NCBI RefSeq assembly: GCF_000332995.1
Contig: NZ_BANS01000003.1
Coordinates: forward strand, 124,001 to 188,000
From: Gordonia amicalis NBRC 100051 = JCM 11271
Lineage (GTDB): Bacteria; Actinomycetota; Actinomycetes; Mycobacteriales; Mycobacteriaceae
Direction of reading: 5' to 3'
DNA: 64,000 nt
The notes beneath the pieces are model-generated. The model ran no database searches, was not told the origin of the DNA, and worked only from the letters and a program-made list of their open reading frames with translations. The translations under genes and the position numbers were made by a program. Below, piece after piece: positions 42,794-51,264 of this stretch; position 1 is the stretch's first letter, and every line of letters starts with the position of its first letter.

Positions 42794-43687
42794 TTAGCCG
42801 AGTAGCTCGGCGAGCTCGACGAGGCTGTACGGAGAGGTGTCCCTGTGGTCGCGGTAGGCGACGAAGCTCGCCTGCTGTGACTCGAACCGGCCGATGAAAC
42901 CGCCTGCGGCGCTGAAGATGTTGCCGGTGATGTGCTCGGCCGCGTCGCTGGCGAGGAAGACGTACAGCGACGCCACGTACTCGGGCGGCGCCGGGTCCAG
43001 GGCCGCGTCGCGGGTGAGGTCGTCGAGAATCCCGCGCCGATGCAGCCCCTCGATGTGCGCGACGTAGTCATCGCCGGTCGACAATCGTGACTTGGCTCCG
43101 GGCATCACCACGTTCACCCGAACGTGGTGATCGGCAAGATCCGCGGCCGCGGCGAGTGCGAGCGCATTGACGCCACCCTTCGCCGCGGGATAGCCGCTGC
43201 CACCGAACATCCCGAGCGACGCCGCCGAGCCGGTGAGCACGATCGACCCGGACGCCTGCTCGACGAAGACCCGCCCGGCGGCCTGGACCAGATGGAACGC
43301 GCTCATCAGATGGGCGTCCACCTGGGCACGGAATTCGTCCGGGGCGATGGTCAGCACCGTCGAACCCGGGGGTTCGGCGATACCGGCGCAGTTGATGGCG
43401 ATGTCCAGTGCGCCGAACTCGGCGAGCGCGGCGTCGACCATCTGCTGGGCGACACCGTCGTCACCGGCCGAACCGCAGACGCCGACAGCCTGACCGCCGC
43501 CGCCGCGGATCTCCGCGACCGTCTCCTCCAGCGCATCACCGTCACGACCGTTGGCGACGACCGAAACCCCCTGTCCCGCGAGTGCATATGCAACCGCGAG
43601 ACCGATGCCCCGGGTGGCGCCGGCGATCACGGCGACCCGGCCACCCAGTCCGGCGGCACCGGGAGACCAGCCGCTGTCCGGACTCAC
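42794..43687 (-). CDS. Short-chain dehydrogenase/reductase closing the CYP51 operon
   Basis: A 297-aa SDR with cofactor motif AGATRGIGLAVAYALAG near residue 23, INCAGIAEPP, and catalytic Tyr-Lys in GYPAAKGG. The C-terminal FFGAAGG-type end is replaced by GNIFSAAGGFIGRFESQQAS, seen in SDRs linked to sterol or acyl-CoA pathways. The GTG start overlaps the upstream stop (GTGA), so it is translated with the 422-aa protein. It is the last gene of the CYP123/CYP51 operon and takes a place that adhB holds in M. tuberculosis. Confidence 0.86.
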   Translation of the reverse strand: MSPDSGWSPGAAGLGGRVAVIAGATRGIGLAVAYALAGQGVSVVANGRDGDALEETVAEIRGGGGQAVGVCGSAGDDGVAQQMVDAALAEFGALDIAINCAGIAEPPGSTVLTIAPDEFRAQVDAHLMSAFHLVQAAGRVFVEQASGSIVLTGSAASLGMFGGSGYPAAKGGVNALALAAAADLADHHVRVNVVMPGAKSRLSTGDDYVAHIEGLHRRGILDDLTRDAALDPAPPEYVASLYVFLASDAAEHITGNIFSAAGGFIGRFESQQASFVAYRDHRDTSPYSLVELAELLG

Positions 43688-44952
43688 GTCGAGCTACCGA
43701 CCGGCGTGATCGGGATCGAGCGGCCGCGGTCGACGAATTCGAAACTCGCGCCACCGCTGAACCGAGCGATCGCCACCTCGCCGCTCTCCTTCTGTGCGGT
43801 GTCCGACGTGACGATCCGGATCTCGAGCGCGTCGTCGGTCTCGACGGCACCCTCGACACTCAGGTAGGGATTCACCGCGGTCGCCGCCGCCTGCAGCGGT
43901 TCCAGATGATCCGGGCTGATGATCGACATCCACCCGCCGTCGGCCGTCGCATCGGACTCACGCGGAATCCGTACGACGACGGCGTCGCCGTCGACGGTCG
44001 CGGTCAGGCCGGTGTACTGCACCGGACCGAAGCACGGATGCAGGGCCAGGACCTGGGCGAGACCTGCGGCGCCGGTGGGGAGATCGAGCGCCGCGCGAAT
44101 GCGGTCCGCCGCGAGTCCGGCGATCCCGATCAGCTGTTTGCGGAGGATCTCGACCACCTGATCCTCGCTCTCGGCACACCGCCGCAAACCGACCAGGAAG
44201 CCGAGGGACAACAGCTGATGCTGCAGCGCAACCTCTTCGGCGATCCGCCCCAATGCCGACGCCGACCACTCGGCGAACTGGAGATCCTCGACGAGCGGGC
44301 CTCGATAGTCGACCCAGCCGTCGGTTGCCGAGCTGTCGATCGCGGACAGCTGGATCTGGCCGGCGCGAGTGCCGAACATCTCCTCGGCGTCCGGAGGGAG
44401 CGGCAGTTCCTCGCGGTCGGGTTCGATGGTGACCGTCCACTCGCAGTGCGGAGTCCGGTCGACGGGACGACGAGGTGGACGATGCACCGGCCGGATTCGC
44501 GCCCGCCGGTTGGTGGCGATGGCCGTCGCGTCGAAGGTCGGGTCCTCGATGTCGTGGCACATCGTGGTGACGTAGTCGTCGCCGAGCGGTTCGACGTCGA
44601 GCAGCGCACCGCAGTGATCGAGCACGAACGACCCGTGATACTTGTCGTCGACCCGAAACCGGAAATCCATGAACTGCGGCGGCGCGCCGATGTCGAGCTG
44701 GAGGCATTTGAACATGTCCTCGACGCCGTCACCGTCGATGCCGAGCGCGGTCCGGATCCGGTGTGTGTAGACCGGACTCGCGGCCTTCCACTCCTCGATG
44801 GCGATCCGGCCCATCACGTCTCGTCCGAATGCGCCGATGAGATGGGCCATTCCGCTGCGGTCGATCATCTGACCGCACAGCAGGAGTTCGGGTACCAGGA
44901 CGGCGAGCTGTTCCTGACTCAGACCTTGGTAGGTCGGGGCTGTGGGAGTCAT
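43684..44952 (-). CDS. Uncharacterised 422-aa protein in the CYP51 operon
   Basis: I cannot assign this protein. It is soluble, with no signal or membrane helix. A conserved-looking core is DHCGALLDVEPLGDDYVTTM, then CHDIEDPTFDATA, with paired Cys and His that could bind a metal or act as nucleophile; it faintly recalls thiazoline-carboxylate hydrolase-like proteins. The second half has a long helical stretch (LGRIAEEVALQHQLLSLGFL). The ATG at 44952 follows the NTF2-like gene by 6 bases, and the 3' end overlaps the SDR. Operon position ties it to P450 chemistry on a sterol-like substrate. Confidence 0.75.
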   Translation of the reverse strand: MTPTAPTYQGLSQEQLAVLVPELLLCGQMIDRSGMAHLIGAFGRDVMGRIAIEEWKAASPVYTHRIRTALGIDGDGVEDMFKCLQLDIGAPPQFMDFRFRVDDKYHGSFVLDHCGALLDVEPLGDDYVTTMCHDIEDPTFDATAIATNRRARIRPVHRPPRRPVDRTPHCEWTVTIEPDREELPLPPDAEEMFGTRAGQIQLSAIDSSATDGWVDYRGPLVEDLQFAEWSASALGRIAEEVALQHQLLSLGFLVGLRRCAESEDQVVEILRKQLIGIAGLAADRIRAALDLPTGAAGLAQVLALHPCFGPVQYTGLTATVDGDAVVVRIPRESDATADGGWMSIISPDHLEPLQAAATAVNPYLSVEGAVETDDALEIRIVTSDTAQKESGEVAIARFSGGASFEFVDRGRSIPITPVGSST

Positions 44953-44958
44953 CTCAGT

Positions 44959-45504
44959 TCACCAGAACGCGACCGGCGTCGTACCGAAGTCATACCAGCC
45001 CGGCAGATTCCCCGGCGCCGCCTTCTCCACCCGCTTGAGCATGCCCTCGCTCATCGCGTTGTTCTGCATCATCTCGATGAAGAGTGCAGAGACGTTGCCG
45101 TAGTCGAAGAAGTCACGTTGCCACGAGAACTGGAAGTTGCCGCCGTACTTGAACCAGCTGCCCTGGATACCTTCGAGCGCATAGTGGGTGCCGTCGTCGC
45201 GGGTGCCCTCGTAGATCTGCTTCCAGAGCCCGATCATGTCGCCGGTCTTCTCGTCGATGACCCAAGCCTGGTATGGGTACTCCCACCCTTCGAGGCCCTC
45301 CATCTCCTGGCCGAGCGCGAGTTCGCGGATCTCCTCGCGACCCACGGCCATGAAGTCCTTCTTCGGGCCGTAGTTCCAGCCGTAAGTGGCGTCCTCGGTG
45401 TAGAACTCGGCGAGCGGCTTCCAGTCTCCCGCCTTCTCCGCCTCGATGTTGGCGGCGAGCCACCGTTCCTTCATCTCTTCCAGTTCGGCACGGTCAAAAG
45501 ACAT
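44959..45504 (-). CDS. NTF2/SnoaL-like protein (Rv0762c-like)
   Basis: A 181-aa protein with an NTF2-like cone fold: ERWLAANIEAEKAGDWKPLA, FYTEDATYGWNYGPKKDFMA, then a beta-rich part and a C-terminal extension rich in Met and Trp. Length and position next to the CYP51 ferredoxin match, as I recall, H37Rv Rv0762c. ATG 45504 is chosen since AAGGTGG is 6 bases upstream; a GTG at 45519 overlapping the ferredoxin stop is possible. It may bind or isomerise the P450 product; no activity is known. Confidence 0.8.
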   Translation of the reverse strand: MSFDRAELEEMKERWLAANIEAEKAGDWKPLAEFYTEDATYGWNYGPKKDFMAVGREEIRELALGQEMEGLEGWEYPYQAWVIDEKTGDMIGLWKQIYEGTRDDGTHYALEGIQGSWFKYGGNFQFSWQRDFFDYGNVSALFIEMMQNNAMSEGMLKRVEKAAPGNLPGWYDFGTTPVAFW

Positions 45505-45515
45505 GTGTTCCACCT

Positions 45516-45713
45516 TCACTCGTCATCTTCGGTGAGACGCAACGCTTGCGTCGGGCAGTACTGCACGGCCGCCTCGACCTCGGCGCGCCGGGATTCGTCG
45601 GGAGTCGCGTCGAGGATCTCGACGTGGTCGGTCTTCGTCGCGAAGACCTCGGGGGCTTCGAGCTCGCACATGCCGTGGCCCTGGCACAGATCCAGATCGA
45701 CCTCGATGCGCAT
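45516..45713 (-). CDS. 3Fe-4S ferredoxin for CYP51 (Rv0763c-like)
   Basis: A 65-aa ferredoxin that feeds electrons to the P450s upstream. Cluster ligands are Cys10 and Cys16 in CQGHGMC, where the usual middle Cys is replaced by His or Gly, and Cys53 in QYCPTQAL, the pattern of P450-associated [3Fe-4S] ferredoxins. Acidic C-terminus (TEDDE). The ATG overlaps the CYP51 stop by one base. The reductase partner may be the FAD enzyme at 5.6-6.9 kb or a gene outside the window. Confidence 0.93.
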   Translation of the reverse strand: MRIEVDLDLCQGHGMCELEAPEVFATKTDHVEILDATPDESRRAEVEAAVQYCPTQALRLTEDDE

Positions 45714-47908
45714 CAGCGGTCCTGACGCTTACGGTAGGCAACGCGGCACGGCTGCTGGAGCTGAACGACCATCTTCGAGTGGTCGTTCCGGTAGCTCTCG
45801 GACGGCTGCAGCATCTCGAACTCGTAGTTCTGGAACAGTACCGAGAAGATCGCCTTTAGCTGCATGATCGCGAATTGCGCACCGACGCAACGATGCCGGC
45901 CCGCCCCGAACGGAATCCAGGTCCAGCGGTTGACCAGATCCTCCTGCCGCGGCTTGTCGTACCGGTCGGGATCGAAGGTGTCCGCGTCCGGGAAGTCCTC
46001 CGGCAGGTGGTTGGAGATCGCCGGCGACACCGCGATCGACTGGCCGGCGGAGATCTCGTAGTCCTCGACGTGGAAATCCTTCTGCACCACACGCATCAGG
46101 ATGATCAGCGGCGGGTGCAGGCGCAACGCCTCTTTGAGGGCGTTCTCAAGCCGAGGCATCTGCCGGGGGTGGGCGAAGGTGTACTCGGGACGTTCACCGG
46201 TCGGGGTGTCGCCGTAGATCTCGTCGAGCTCGTCGTAGACGCGCGACATGTAGTCCGGGTTGCGCAACAGCTCGATCAGCGTCCACGCGGCGGTGCCCGA
46301 CGTCGTGTGATGGCCGGCGAACATCATCGAGATGAACATGCCGGTGATCGTGTTGGCGTCGAAGCCGACCTGGACGAGCACGTCCATCAGGTCGCGATCG
46401 TCTTTGTCCTCAGTCGGATTCGCGACGCGCTCGTCCATCACGCCCTGGATGAACTCGACGAGTTCGGCACGCGCCTCGTCGCGTTTGCGGAAGCTCTCGA
46501 TGTCGGCCTTGTAGTCGACGTACGCGATCGGGTCGGTGCCCTTCTCCAGGTCATGGAAGAGGTGGGCGATGTGCCCGCTGAGCCGCTCCCGGAACTTGCG
46601 TCCGATCAGGCACGACGACGAGGTGTAGAGCGTGAGTTCGGAGAAGAAGTCGAGCAGGTCGATCTCGCCCTCGTCGCCCCACTCGGCGATGATGCGCTCC
46701 ACCTCGTTCGGGATCGTCACCGCGTGTTGTTTCATGTGGGCGCCCTTGAGCGCTGAGTTGTGGATCGCCTTGGACCGCTCCTCGGGGCTCGCGTCGAACA
46801 CGACGCCCTCGCCGAACACCGGGGTCATGAACGGGTAGGCGGCAGCCTGATCGAGGTCTTCCTCGGGCGCGCGGAAGAACTCCTCGTTGGCCGCGGCCCC
46901 GGACACCAGCACCACCTCGCGGTCGGCGAGCTGGAACATGCCGACGTCGCCGCATTCCTCGCGGACGCGCCAGAACAGCGAGATCGGGTCGCTCGCGAGT
47001 TCGTCGAGATGGCCGTGTTCGCTCTCGCCGCCCGAGACTCGATGCGGCTTCTTCAGACCTGATGCGGTGGTGGCGGTCATCGATGGGTCCCCTTGTCCTT
47101 CGTCGACTGTGGGGTCTTCTGGTGTCGTGGCCCGGTCCCGGGAGACCGCACCCTCGGCCTCCACCTCGACCGCGCGCATGTGGGCACCGCGCGGCATGGT
47201 GACCATCGCCGCGACGGCCAGCGCGATGTGCTGGGGTTCGAGGAAGTTGCCGTGGCGGGCCAAGCCGTGCTTGATCCAGTCGTTGAGCATGTCCTCGGTG
47301 GTCTTCTGGTCGAGGTTCATGCCCATGCCGGTCAGCGTCTGTCCCGGTCGGACCACACCTGCTCGCACACCGGTGCCCTCGAGTTCGAGCTGGATGGTGG
47401 CGACCAGTCCGTCGATCCCCGACTTCGCCGCGACGTAGGCCGACGACCAGGGCCGCGGGTGGAGTACGACATCGGAACCGATGAACACGAAATCGCCTCG
47501 GGCACGGTCGATCATGCCGCCGATGACGGCCCGGTAGATCCGGTAGGCACCGGTGAGATGGATGTTGACCTGATCGGCGAAATGCTCCGGACTCGTCTCG
47601 TAGGAGAGCCCGACCGCGAGGTCGCCGGCTCCGGCGACCACGATCTCGAGTTCGCCGAGTGCGGCCTCCGCTTTCGCAACGCAGTCGACCACGGACTGTT
47701 CGTCGGTCACGTCGAGCGGTACGGCGACCGCCTCGCCGCCCGCGGCGATGATCTTGTCGGCCAGCTCCTGGAGCTTCTCGACTCGGCGGGCCGCCAGGGC
47801 CACGGGATGGCCGGCCGCCGCGAGGTGTTCGGCCGTCGCCGCTCCGATGCCCGACGAGGCACCCGCGACGAGGACCGGCCGACGTTCGGGATGAGGACGA
47901 AAACCCAT
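45713..47908 (-). CDS. SDR-CYP51 in one frame: short-chain dehydrogenase joined to sterol 14alpha-demethylase
   Basis: One unbroken 731-codon frame. Residues 1-276 are an SDR (VAGASSGIGAATAEHLAAAG, VAGAG, YVAAKSG) like Rv0765c; residues 277-731 are CYP51 (RVSGGESEHGHLDEL, YPFMTPVFGEGVVFDASPE, I-helix FAGHHTTSG, ExxR ALKEALRLHPP, haem loop FGAGRHRCVGAQF). CYP51 removes the 14alpha-methyl of sterols. In M. tuberculosis these are two genes; here no stop separates them, only a linker (ATTPEDPTVDEGQGDPS). An internal ATG with a good ribosome site could still make CYP51 alone. The start ATG shares a base with the CYP123 stop. Confidence 0.88.
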   Translation of the reverse strand: MGFRPHPERRPVLVAGASSGIGAATAEHLAAAGHPVALAARRVEKLQELADKIIAAGGEAVAVPLDVTDEQSVVDCVAKAEAALGELEIVVAGAGDLAVGLSYETSPEHFADQVNIHLTGAYRIYRAVIGGMIDRARGDFVFIGSDVVLHPRPWSSAYVAAKSGIDGLVATIQLELEGTGVRAGVVRPGQTLTGMGMNLDQKTTEDMLNDWIKHGLARHGNFLEPQHIALAVAAMVTMPRGAHMRAVEVEAEGAVSRDRATTPEDPTVDEGQGDPSMTATTASGLKKPHRVSGGESEHGHLDELASDPISLFWRVREECGDVGMFQLADREVVLVSGAAANEEFFRAPEEDLDQAAAYPFMTPVFGEGVVFDASPEERSKAIHNSALKGAHMKQHAVTIPNEVERIIAEWGDEGEIDLLDFFSELTLYTSSSCLIGRKFRERLSGHIAHLFHDLEKGTDPIAYVDYKADIESFRKRDEARAELVEFIQGVMDERVANPTEDKDDRDLMDVLVQVGFDANTITGMFISMMFAGHHTTSGTAAWTLIELLRNPDYMSRVYDELDEIYGDTPTGERPEYTFAHPRQMPRLENALKEALRLHPPLIILMRVVQKDFHVEDYEISAGQSIAVSPAISNHLPEDFPDADTFDPDRYDKPRQEDLVNRWTWIPFGAGRHRCVGAQFAIMQLKAIFSVLFQNYEFEMLQPSESYRNDHSKMVVQLQQPCRVAYRKRQDR
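47078..47094 (-). promoter_or_regulatory. Internal ribosome site and ATG for free CYP51
   Basis: On the minus strand AAGGGGA (47094-47088) lies 7 bases before ATG 47080, where the CYP51-homologous part starts (MTATTASGLKKP). Initiation here would give a 455-aa CYP51 of normal length in addition to the 731-aa fusion. This site decides whether the fusion is the only product. Confidence 0.62.
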
Positions 47909-49152
47909 CAGCGCACCGTCACTTTCACGGGGAGTTCGGCGAAGCCGCGCACGTTGACCGAGTGCACGCGCACGGCTTTGTCGATGTCGATGTCGACCGC
48001 GCGGATCGACCGGATCACCTCGCCGAGACCGATGTTGGCCTCGAGACGGGCGAGATGTGCGCCGAGGCAGAAGTGCGCTCCGAGACCGAAGCTCATCAAC
48101 GCCTGGCCGTTGTCGCGCCCGATGTCGTACTTGTCGGCATCCGGCCCGAAGACCTCCTGATCACGGTTCGCCGAACCGACGAGGAGGAGGACGCGGTCAC
48201 CGGCCGGGATCACGTGGTCGCCGTAGGGTGCATCCTCGATCACGCGTCGCACGACGATCTGGGTCGAGTTGTCGTAGCGCAACGTCTCCTCGGTCCACTG
48301 CGGGACCGCGAGTTCGGGGTCGGCGAACACCTTGGCCAGTTCGTCGGGATTACGCCAGCCCCAATAGAGCGCATTGGCAAGGAGTTTCGTCGTGGTCTCG
48401 TTACCCGCGACCACCATCAGGACCATGAAACCGACGATCTCGTCCTCGGTGAGCCTGATCTTCTCGCGGGTCGCGTCGTCGTCGATCTCGGCCTCGATCA
48501 AAGCCGAGACCAGATCCTCGCCGGGACTCTTCCGCCGGTCGGCGATGAGTTCCGAATAGTACTTGTGCAGTTCGATGTACGCGTGGATCGCGGCCTCGGG
48601 GATGTCGAGGACACCGTCCTCGCGATGAAGGAGCAGATCGGACTGGTGCCGCAGATGTGTACGGTCGGCTTCGGGGACTCCCAGGAGCTCGGAGACGACG
48701 TCCATCGGCAACAGTGCGGCGAAGTCGTGGACGTAGTCGAACTCGCCCATGTCGAGGCACTTGCTCCAGTGCTGGTGCGTCAGCGCGGTGATCCGGCCGG
48801 CGAGGTCGTTGACGCGGCGCGGCGTGAAGCCCTTCGAGACCAGCTTGCGGATGCGCATGTGTTTGGGGTCGTCCATCGCGAGGAAGGACATCGACTTGTG
48901 TGCGTCGGGCCCGTACGCCGACGGGTCCATCGACACGCCCCAGCTGTTCGAGAACCGTTGCACGTCACGGAATCCCGCGCGGACATCGGCGTGATTCGCC
49001 AGTGCCCAGAAGTTCATCTCGGCGTTGTAGTAGACCGGCGCCTCCCGACGGAGCCGGGCGTAGGTCGGATACGGATCCTCGTGGAAGTCATAGGCATACG
49101 GGTCGAAGGGGAGGGCTCGCTCCATCCCCGGCACCGATGTCGTTTCGGTCAT
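47908..49152 (-). CDS. Cytochrome P450, CYP123-like
   Basis: A 414-aa P450 with I-helix VVAGNETTTKLL, ExxR in EETLRYDNSTQ and haem loop FGLGAHFCLGAHLAR. The N-terminal FDPYAYDFHEDPYPTYARLR and the closing VHSVNVRGFAELPV agree with mycobacterial CYP123 (Rv0766c), which also sits directly before the SDR and CYP51. Substrate not established. ATG 49152 shares a base with the TetR stop and has GGAG upstream; a GTG at 49155 is the alternative. All genes of the operon overlap or nearly so. Confidence 0.87.
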   Translation of the reverse strand: MTETTSVPGMERALPFDPYAYDFHEDPYPTYARLRREAPVYYNAEMNFWALANHADVRAGFRDVQRFSNSWGVSMDPSAYGPDAHKSMSFLAMDDPKHMRIRKLVSKGFTPRRVNDLAGRITALTHQHWSKCLDMGEFDYVHDFAALLPMDVVSELLGVPEADRTHLRHQSDLLLHREDGVLDIPEAAIHAYIELHKYYSELIADRRKSPGEDLVSALIEAEIDDDATREKIRLTEDEIVGFMVLMVVAGNETTTKLLANALYWGWRNPDELAKVFADPELAVPQWTEETLRYDNSTQIVVRRVIEDAPYGDHVIPAGDRVLLLVGSANRDQEVFGPDADKYDIGRDNGQALMSFGLGAHFCLGAHLARLEANIGLGEVIRSIRAVDIDIDKAVRVHSVNVRGFAELPVKVTVR

Positions 49153-49733
49153 CACTTCTCCATCAGTAGATGCGCAGCAGCGACAAGACGTTCGGAGGTC
49201 TGCTCATAGGTCATGTGCCCCATGCCGGCGTAGACGAGGCCGCCGGAGTAGATCATCTCCAGGGTGTCGAGGAGCGGCCCGGGATTCTCCGGATCCTCCT
49301 CGAGCGCGGCGGCCAGACGCCGGCGGATGAACGCACCGATGCGGACGCGGAGGTGCTCGACGTCGGGGTCGGTCCCCAGCAGCGCAACGGTGACCGCACC
49401 ACCGAGTTGCCCCTCCCCCGCCACGACGAGCGCCACCTCGCGGAGCACCTGCGCGACCCGCTCGCTCGGCGCCGCGGCGGGATCGGGTTCGGAGACCCCC
49501 GCGGACAGCCGCCGCCAGAAGACCTCGGCGACCAGATGGCTCTTCGACGAGAAGTACGTGTACGCCGTCGCCGGCGCGACACCCGCGATCTTGGCCACCG
49601 ACCGCACCGTGAGCCCGTCGAAACCCTCGGCGTTCAGCACGTCGACCGCGGCCTCGGTGAGCCGCGAGACCGTCTCCGCCTGCTGCTGCGTGAGGCGGCG
49701 ACGTGTGGATTCCTGGGATACGGGGCTGGACAT
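49152..49733 (-). CDS. TetR-family regulator of the CYP123/CYP51 operon (Rv0767c-like)
   Basis: A 193-aa TetR protein with helix-turn-helix LTVRSVAKIAGVAPATAYTY near residues 41-60. It is the first gene of the operon and overlaps CYP123. The divergent aldA-type gene starts only 64 bases away, so it probably controls both directions through the imperfect palindrome between them. As I recall it, Rv0767c holds this place in H37Rv. ATG 49733 is preferred; GTG 49742 is possible. Confidence 0.85.
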   Translation of the reverse strand: MSSPVSQESTRRRLTQQQAETVSRLTEAAVDVLNAEGFDGLTVRSVAKIAGVAPATAYTYFSSKSHLVAEVFWRRLSAGVSEPDPAAAPSERVAQVLREVALVVAGEGQLGGAVTVALLGTDPDVEHLRVRIGAFIRRRLAAALEEDPENPGPLLDTLEMIYSGGLVYAGMGHMTYEQTSERLVAAAHLLMEK

Positions 49734-49772: not shown

Positions 49773-49797
49773 ACCTGTCCAGATGGAGTTCCAGCTC

Positions 49798-51264
49798 ATG
49801 CCCCTTCGCCCCGAAACCGCGTCGGATCTGTTGATCGACGGCAAGCTCACCCCCGGCAGCGGCGGTGTCTTCGACGTCGTCAACCCCGCGACCGAGGAGG
49901 TCATCGGACAGGCCGCCGAGGCCACCGCCGCCGACATGGACGCCGCGATCGCCGCCGCCCGCACCGCTTTCGACACCACCGAGTGGTCGCGCGACCACGC
50001 CTTCCGCGCCCGCTGCCTACGACAACTGCGCGATGCCCTCCTCGCCCACGCCGACGAGTTCCGCGAACTGACGATCGCCGAGGTCGGCTGCCCGTCGTTC
50101 CTCACCCACGGCCCGCAGTTCGAGGGACCGGTGACCGATCTCGGCTACTTCGCCGACCTCGCCGAGAGCTACGAGTGGTCCCGCGATCTCGGCGAGGCCA
50201 GGCCGATGGGCATCAAGAACCATCGTGAGCTTCGGTCGGAGGCCGTCGGCGTCGTCGGTGCGATCACGCCGTGGAACTTCCCCCACCAGATCAACTTCGC
50301 CAAGATCGGGCCGGCCCTCGCCGCCGGATGCACCGTCGTCCTCAAGCCGGCACCCGACACCCCCTGGTGCGCGGCGCTCGTCGGCAAGGTCGTCGCCGAG
50401 GAAACCGACCTTCCACCCGGCGTCCTGAACATCGTCACCTCCACCGATCACCGCCTCGGCGAGCAACTGTCCACCGACCCCCGCGTCGACCTCGTCTCCT
50501 TCACCGGCTCCACCGCGACCGGCAAGAAGGTGATGGCCGCGGCGTCGGAGTCGCTGAAGAAGGTGTTCCTCGAACTCGGCGGCAAGTCCGCGTTCATCGT
50601 GCTCGACGACGCCGACGTCGGTTCGGCGTGCGCGATGGCGGCGTTCAACGTCGTCACCCATGCCGGCCAGGGCTGTGCGATCACCACGCGCCTCGTCGTG
50701 CCTCGTCCCAGGCTCGACGAGGCGATCACCGGGACCCGCGACGCGCTGGCCGGCCTCCCGCCCGGCGACCCCACGAGTTCGGGCACCATCTGCGGACCGT
50801 TGATCTCCGAGCGTCAGCGTCAGCGCGTCGAGTCCTACATCGAACTCGCCAAGCAGGAGGGCGGCACCATCGAGATCGGTGGTGGCCGTCCGGCCGACAA
50901 GCCCAACGGTTTCTTCGTGGAGCCGACGCTGATCTCCGGACTCGACAACTCGGCACGCGTCGCGCAGGAGGAGATCTTCGGTCCGGTCCTGGTGATCATC
51001 GCCCACGACGGCGACGACGACGCGATCCGCATCGCCAACGACTCCCCCTACGGACTGTCGGGCATGGTCTACGGCACCGACGAGGACCGGATCAACAAGG
51101 TGGTCAACGGTGTTCGCACCGGGACCATGGGCGTCAACGGCGGCATCTGGTACTCCGCCGACGTCCCGTTCGGCGGCTACAAACAGTCCGGCATCGGCCG
51201 CGAGATGGGCGTCGCCGGTTTCGAGGAATACCTGGAGACCAAGGCCGTCGCGCGACCCGCGTGA
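49798..51264 (+). CDS. Aldehyde dehydrogenase AldA-like (Rv0768-like)
   Basis: A 488-aa NAD-dependent aldehyde dehydrogenase with GVVGAITPWNFPHQINF, FTGSTATGKKVM, LELGGKSAFIVLDD, the catalytic Cys in HAGQGCAITTR (about residue 285) and EEIFGPVLVI. It opens the operon divergent from CYP123/CYP51 and agrees in order with H37Rv Rv0768 to Rv0771. ATG 49798 (MPLRPETA) has GGAG 9 bases upstream; ATG 49783 in the same frame is the alternative. It may oxidise aldehydes released by the P450 reactions. Confidence 0.9.
   Translation: MPLRPETASDLLIDGKLTPGSGGVFDVVNPATEEVIGQAAEATAADMDAAIAAARTAFDTTEWSRDHAFRARCLRQLRDALLAHADEFRELTIAEVGCPSFLTHGPQFEGPVTDLGYFADLAESYEWSRDLGEARPMGIKNHRELRSEAVGVVGAITPWNFPHQINFAKIGPALAAGCTVVLKPAPDTPWCAALVGKVVAEETDLPPGVLNIVTSTDHRLGEQLSTDPRVDLVSFTGSTATGKKVMAAASESLKKVFLELGGKSAFIVLDDADVGSACAMAAFNVVTHAGQGCAITTRLVVPRPRLDEAITGTRDALAGLPPGDPTSSGTICGPLISERQRQRVESYIELAKQEGGTIEIGGGRPADKPNGFFVEPTLISGLDNSARVAQEEIFGPVLVIIAHDGDDDAIRIANDSPYGLSGMVYGTDEDRINKVVNGVRTGTMGVNGGIWYSADVPFGGYKQSGIGREMGVAGFEEYLETKAVARPA

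Follow-up and report, generated by a model that had tools for sequence, protein, structure and literature searches.

A one-base run-together of the SDR and CYP51 genes in a single Gordonia genome, most likely real, with the original CYP51 start intact

The window, by which we mean the whole 64,000-nucleotide stretch of Gordonia amicalis DNA that was analysed, contains a minus-strand frame that encodes an SDR followed directly by a CYP51. The genes and sequence features on which the following analysis draws are:

44959..45519, minus strand: NTF2/SnoaL-like protein, probable 8,14-sterol reductase, two genes downstream of the CYP51 frame
45516..45713, minus strand: ferredoxin, 65 aa, a separate gene whose start overlaps the CYP51 stop (TGATG); identified by sequence and gene order
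45713..47908, minus strand: SDR-CYP51 open frame, from ATG at 47908 to TGA at 45713, 731 codons
45713..47080, minus strand: CYP51, 455 aa and 51.8 kDa if read from the conserved internal ATG
47077..47112, minus strand: SDR tail like that of the nearest relatives, in another frame (PQSTKDKGTHR*), with the TGA of the ATGA overlap as its stop
47081..47134, minus strand: linker, residues 259-276, predicted to be disordered (pLDDT < 50)
47088..47094, minus strand: putative CYP51 ribosome-binding site, AAGGGGA, identical in the nearest relatives
47111..47114, minus strand: run of four C, one base longer than in the nearest relatives
47135..47908, minus strand: SDR domain, residues 1-258 (NF005854), in the position of M. 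tuberculosis Rv0765c
47908..49155, minus strand: second cytochrome P450, in the Rv0766c/cyp123 position, its stop overlapping the SDR start (TGATG); named from the gene order in an excerpt of PMC10198500
49152..49742, minus strand: TetR-family regulator (Pfam)
49783..51264, plus strand: aldehyde dehydrogenase, Rv0768 equivalog (TIGR04284)

The genes around the SDR-CYP51 frame follow the M. tuberculosis order from rv0762c to aldA, which the excerpt of PMC10198500 gives as rv0762c, rv0763c, cyp51, rv0765c, cyp123, rv0767c, aldA. The same M. tuberculosis genes are listed together, with similar expression ratios of 0.14 to 0.24, in a section of PMC10470581. At the TetR-P450, P450-SDR, CYP51-ferredoxin and ferredoxin-NTF2-like junctions, stop and start codons overlap by 4 or 1 nt, and such overlaps are described in part of PMC10666635 as the commonest forms of termination-reinitiation coupling. 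The operon also includes a 422-aa ORF (43684-44952) without any Pfam or NCBIfam match.

ORF reading found no stop within the 45713-47908 frame, as had been claimed from the letters alone, and both of its domains are complete. Pfam matches place adh_short at residues 12-202 and p450 at residues 308-721. The first half matches NCBIfam NF005854 (PRK07775) over residues 2-260 with 397.9 bits against a curated cut-off of 260, has the glycine-rich and YxxxK motifs of SDRs (GASSGIG at 16, YVAAK at 158), and is 97-98% identical in the nearest relatives (L010, L011, L092-L095). The second half gives a full-length match to characterised CYP51, with residues 290-729 aligning with mycobacterial CYP51 structures, and carries the I-helix, ExxR and heme-cysteine motifs (AGHHTTS at 531, EALR at 593, FGAGRHRCVG at 667), which supports its assignment to CYP51. 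Judged by these matches, both halves are real genes and the frame is more than a chance long ORF. If made in one piece, the 731-aa product would have a computed mass of 80.7 kDa.

A structure predicted from a 49-sequence alignment has two mostly confident domains (mean pLDDT 84.8, pTM 0.61); besides the linker, short stretches near residue 384 and at 658-675 also fall below a pLDDT of 50. Because the model consists of two folded domains joined by a disordered linker, the fusion would be sterically plausible. The sequence-only reading had described this linker as acidic; a linker is indeed present, but residues 251-289, with 4 D, 3 E, 2 K and 2 R, are only mildly acidic. Its length and frame differ in the nearest relatives.

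We compared the junction in 141 loci (one locus collection being the best 80 of 262 loci), in 132 of which SDR and CYP51 lie close together. The remaining nine were dropped, eight having no SDR match in the locus and one a weak match, and after removal of identical junctions 98 distinct SDR/CYP51 junctions were left, the window's included. Stop and start overlap by 4 nt at 66 of these and by 1 nt at 8, so that 74 show the arrangement of translational coupling; 23 have no overlap and one, that of the window, is fused. When only junctions with a CYP51 at least 84% identical were considered, 36 of 37 were overlapped and the other was again the window's. Within the genus, the SDR-CYP51 query finds a match in 56 of 59 genomes, the window's own included, and none of the other 55 is fused at the junction (in G008, which carries two copies of the pair, one copy was read). 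Three genus genomes, G013, G018 and G048, gave no match to this query at E<=1e-60. Among 401 family genomes there were 92 matches at E<=1e-215, a threshold that would miss fused pairs much below about 60% similarity; in 11 of them the alignment spans SDR and CYP51 without a change of frame, and of these rows the window's is the only one free of stops. The junction comparison called for in the sequence-only reading thus finds separate SDR and CYP51 genes in the relatives read, as that reading had stated for mycobacteria. An established two-domain fusion would be kept in orthologues, which neither set of junctions or rows displays, and the fusion looks specific to the window's genome. A second Gordonia group, G032 and G045, had shown equal open-frame length for both halves; on direct reading of the junction, retention of the fusion there was rejected, as CYP51 starts 180 and 384 nt past the SDR stop in L118 and L119, respectively. 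Four Gordonia loci (L047, L118, L119 and L120) have a CYP51 start 178-384 nt beyond the SDR stop, unlike the usual overlap.

The SDR of the nearest relatives terminates at a TGA overlapping the CYP51 ATG (ATGA), with CYP51 in phase 2. Alignment with these sequences locates the difference in the C run at 47111-47114, where the relatives have CCC (L010/L092 and L094), ACC (L093) or CAC (L011/L095) and where one extra base in the window makes the SDR and CYP51 frames coincide. The variable SDR tail of the window is also 6 nt shorter, in frame, than that of the nearest relatives. Read out of frame, the window still encodes PQSTKDKGTHR, compared with PQSTKDKGTDR in L010. The ATGA of a translationally coupled pair is therefore present, but its TGA lies outside the SDR frame. 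On this alignment the fusion itself needs just one base of frame change. Since only one base differs between the window and L010 from the C run to the ATG, the fused state looks young; it would be either that or a sequence error, for which one base suffices.

The AAGGGGA site lies 8 nt before the ATG at 47080, which begins the 455-aa CYP51 and is the same ATG as in the nearest relatives. Its predicted pairing with the anti-ribosome-site is -8.7 kcal/mol, a value attained by 4.4% of 2000 random 20-mers, and it ranks third of the 61 ATG/GTG sites in any frame of the ORF. The sequence-only reading had held that an internal ribosome site here could yield free CYP51, and the site is where it was proposed to be; from its consensus and conservation, free 51.8-kDa CYP51 is expected.

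Taken as a whole, the explanation that we moderately favor is a real and recent change, specific to this lineage, in the variable tail at the SDR C terminus, where one extra C, beside the in-frame 6-nt shortening, would have brought the SDR and CYP51 frames into register. In the nearest relatives, ribosomes would be expected to re-initiate at the SDR TGA overlapping the CYP51 ATG. In the window, SDR-initiated ribosomes are expected to give the fusion because they meet no stop, and no full SDR product other than the 80.7-kDa SDR-CYP51 would then arise; free CYP51 would still be made from the conserved ribosome site and ATG. Both enzymes would probably keep their ordinary activities, with no need of a new function. 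The more specific picture of one mRNA that yields a natural SDR-CYP51 fusion together with free CYP51 from the internal start and no free SDR, its coupling stop bypassed by a single base, is put forward tentatively, at slightly under an even chance. The two domains could come apart if the loose linker were cut.

This explanation depends on the extra base, which is present in one assembly. Were it a sequencing or assembly error, the C would be absent in the cell and SDR and CYP51 would be ordinary coupled genes with an ATGA overlap. Such an error would fit with the whole effect coming from one base in a short C run and with an out-of-frame tail that matches that of the relatives and ends exactly at the coupling stop, although four C are few for a homopolymer error. 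We surveyed frame agreement for 114 ORFs drawn on the 200-kb contig, comparing them with three relatives, G034, G003 and G025, in which 88, 84 and 77 ORFs were comparable and 10, 5 and 3 were frame-discordant, respectively. The SDR-CYP51 ORF was the only one on the contig discordant with all three, which speaks against an error. Frame disagreement as such is not unique to this place, as other ORFs of the contig disagree with one or two relatives: a 14-kb ORF is discordant in its first 400 nt with G034 and G003 (and not comparable in G025), 104964-107207 with G034 and G025, 164548-165720 with G003 and G025, 148167-148934 with G003 only (the others not being comparable), and eight further ORFs with a single relative each. 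In the reverse direction, few ORFs of the relatives were discordant with the window's contig (1 of 90 in G034, 5 of 90 in G003 and 2 of 80 in G025), which again argues against an error. In the single G034 case the extra C sits in G034, and the G003 and G025 cases, in which the first ORF stretch is 75-85% conserved, may be over-extended starts. The flanking 200 kb thus shows little sign of indel trouble. G034 was the most discordant relative: 10 of 88 ORFs of G000, 9 of 81 of G003 and 18 of 101 of G025 are discordant with it. It shows that frames in Gordonia assemblies do differ by one base at short G/C runs, a point in favor of an error. Compared with G003, G025 and the window's genome, this genome (single contig; L093, L124-L143, L164-L175) is frame-discordant more often than those three are with one another, and several of its differences from the window's genome amount to a single additional C or G within a short run.

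Protein databases bear on the same question. The protein searches scored only candidates sharing most words, and the 731-aa frame was absent both from the 120 of 4966 proteins listed in one of them and from the 25 proteins matched in a length-restricted search. SDR and P450 domains occur together in 14 of these 25, and P0008 and P0056 alone are complete in both. In P0061 the beginning of the SDR is missing; in each of the remaining 11, stretches are either absent or out of frame, as judged from their letters and from how far clean SDR and CYP51 sequences cover them. Errors are thus frequent in frames of this sort, which lends some weight to the same reading of the window, and we did not accept the 14 proteins as proof that such a fusion enzyme is widespread. 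P0008 continues into a ferredoxin as well, and the contig that carries P0056 is 2.8 kb long. The joins of P0056 and P0061 lie, like that of the window, just before the CYP51 start methionine. Going by these sequences, the window is not alone in having an intact SDR-CYP51 frame when the wider database is considered. No SDR-CYP51 fusion was found in the extracts of open-licence PMC papers searched. Other CYP51 frames seen in the databases include P0138, a 1210-aa frame (11 member sequences, JGI) in which a lanosterol-synthase-like cyclase is joined to CYP51 by a linker that looks like read-through of intergenic sequence, and P0040, a 671-aa CYP51 from Mycobacteroides abscessus that contains a large internal duplication of the middle part. 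Weighing these points together, we infer that the extra base is probably real, and we regard an error as unlikely, though it is the alternative that survives best.

Alternatively, the base may be real and the cell may make mostly free CYP51 as before, with little or no stable fusion, either because the linker is cut or because a +1 slip at CCC takes some ribosomes to the old TGA. Conservation of the ribosome site and ATG, the predicted disorder of the linker and retention of the old TGA in the +1 frame are all compatible with this. Ribosome slippage at CCC would be possible; no programmed signal was noticed, however, and slippage without one is normally rare. We consider this outcome very improbable.

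The sequence-only reading had gone further, suggesting that the fusion could channel the next oxidation of the demethylated sterol or the handling of a released aldehyde. The 14-aldehyde is an enzyme-bound intermediate of CYP51, which itself finishes the reaction and releases formate. In the portions of a 2026 paper at hand (PMC13277303), the step after CYP51 in methanotrophs is assigned to an NTF2-family 8,14-sterol reductase, often encoded beside CYP51 and its ferredoxin; M. tuberculosis and myxobacterial homologues of the reductase were also active, and Mycobacterium was suggested to be able to modify exogenous lanosterol. A probable homologue of this reductase is encoded at 44959-45519 in the window. 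NCBIfam gives this protein no name, its Pfam match is sub-threshold only and a PDB sequence search with it returned no match; its identity to the final part of P0125, which we label a tuberculosis-like CYP51-region frame, is 54%. The M. capsulatus pocket residues given in the excerpts of PMC13277303 (Y37, Y43, Y78, Y80, D133 and D136) have counterparts at Y40, Y46, Y81, Y83, D136 and D139, with a constant shift of 3, when compared by position and spacing, without alignment to the M. capsulatus reference sequence. Because the one cyclase domain tried, PF13249, had no match in the window's genome, endogenous sterol synthesis appears unlikely; as a control, the same domain matched 1 of 14 genomes (B. 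subtilis). With the published next step falling to a reductase other than the SDR, and with the relatives compared unfused, the channelling proposal finds no support, and passage from or to CYP51 is not indicated. A selected bifunctional enzyme, with the fusion serving to hand substrate from one of the two domains to the other, is the least likely reading of all: the motifs of both domains, a linker that could allow it, the closeness of the two genes in the 132 loci, the complete frames of P0008 and P0056 and the CYP51-ferredoxin fusions, which on the excerpts of PMC9519919 and PMC9868604 are instances of CYP51 being joined to a neighbor in its operon, are outweighed by the single stop-free frame among the family genomes, at the threshold used, and among the distinct junctions, the apparent youth of the post-shift stretch and the NTF2-like identity of the known next enzyme.

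Our preferred reading is thus that two genes of the operon have run together in this one genome; the change is most likely real, leaves CYP51 its original start and probably represents a local accident instead of a new type of enzyme. Should the base be real, the locus offers a clean snapshot of an overlapping stop-start pair becoming a fused gene through one base, in an operon whose nearby junctions are overlapped too, and a natural test of how well CYP51 tolerates an N-terminal partner; a real base alone would not establish substrate channelling.

The locus is closest to the coupled SDR-cyp51 pair of Mycobacteriales (Rv0765c-Rv0764c), with which it shares the genes, their order, the CYP51 ribosome site and the CYP51 start, and the ATGA of the nearest relatives is retained in the window; unlike in that pair, the SDR stop of the window is out of frame, leaving one open frame. 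CYP51-ferredoxin fusions are a known case of joining, according to the passages seen of PMC9519919 and PMC9868604. The SDR-CYP51 frame does not belong with them, as the ferredoxin of the window lies in the separate ORF 45516-45713, and whereas in Methylococcus capsulatus the ferredoxin follows CYP51, here the SDR precedes it. The M. capsulatus fusion is a studied protein and that of the window is a frame in one assembly. In both, however, CYP51 is joined to a gene of the type that neighbors it, and the M. capsulatus fusion has been proposed, in the text seen of PMC9868604, to have arisen by a comparable run-through, after mutation of a stop codon.
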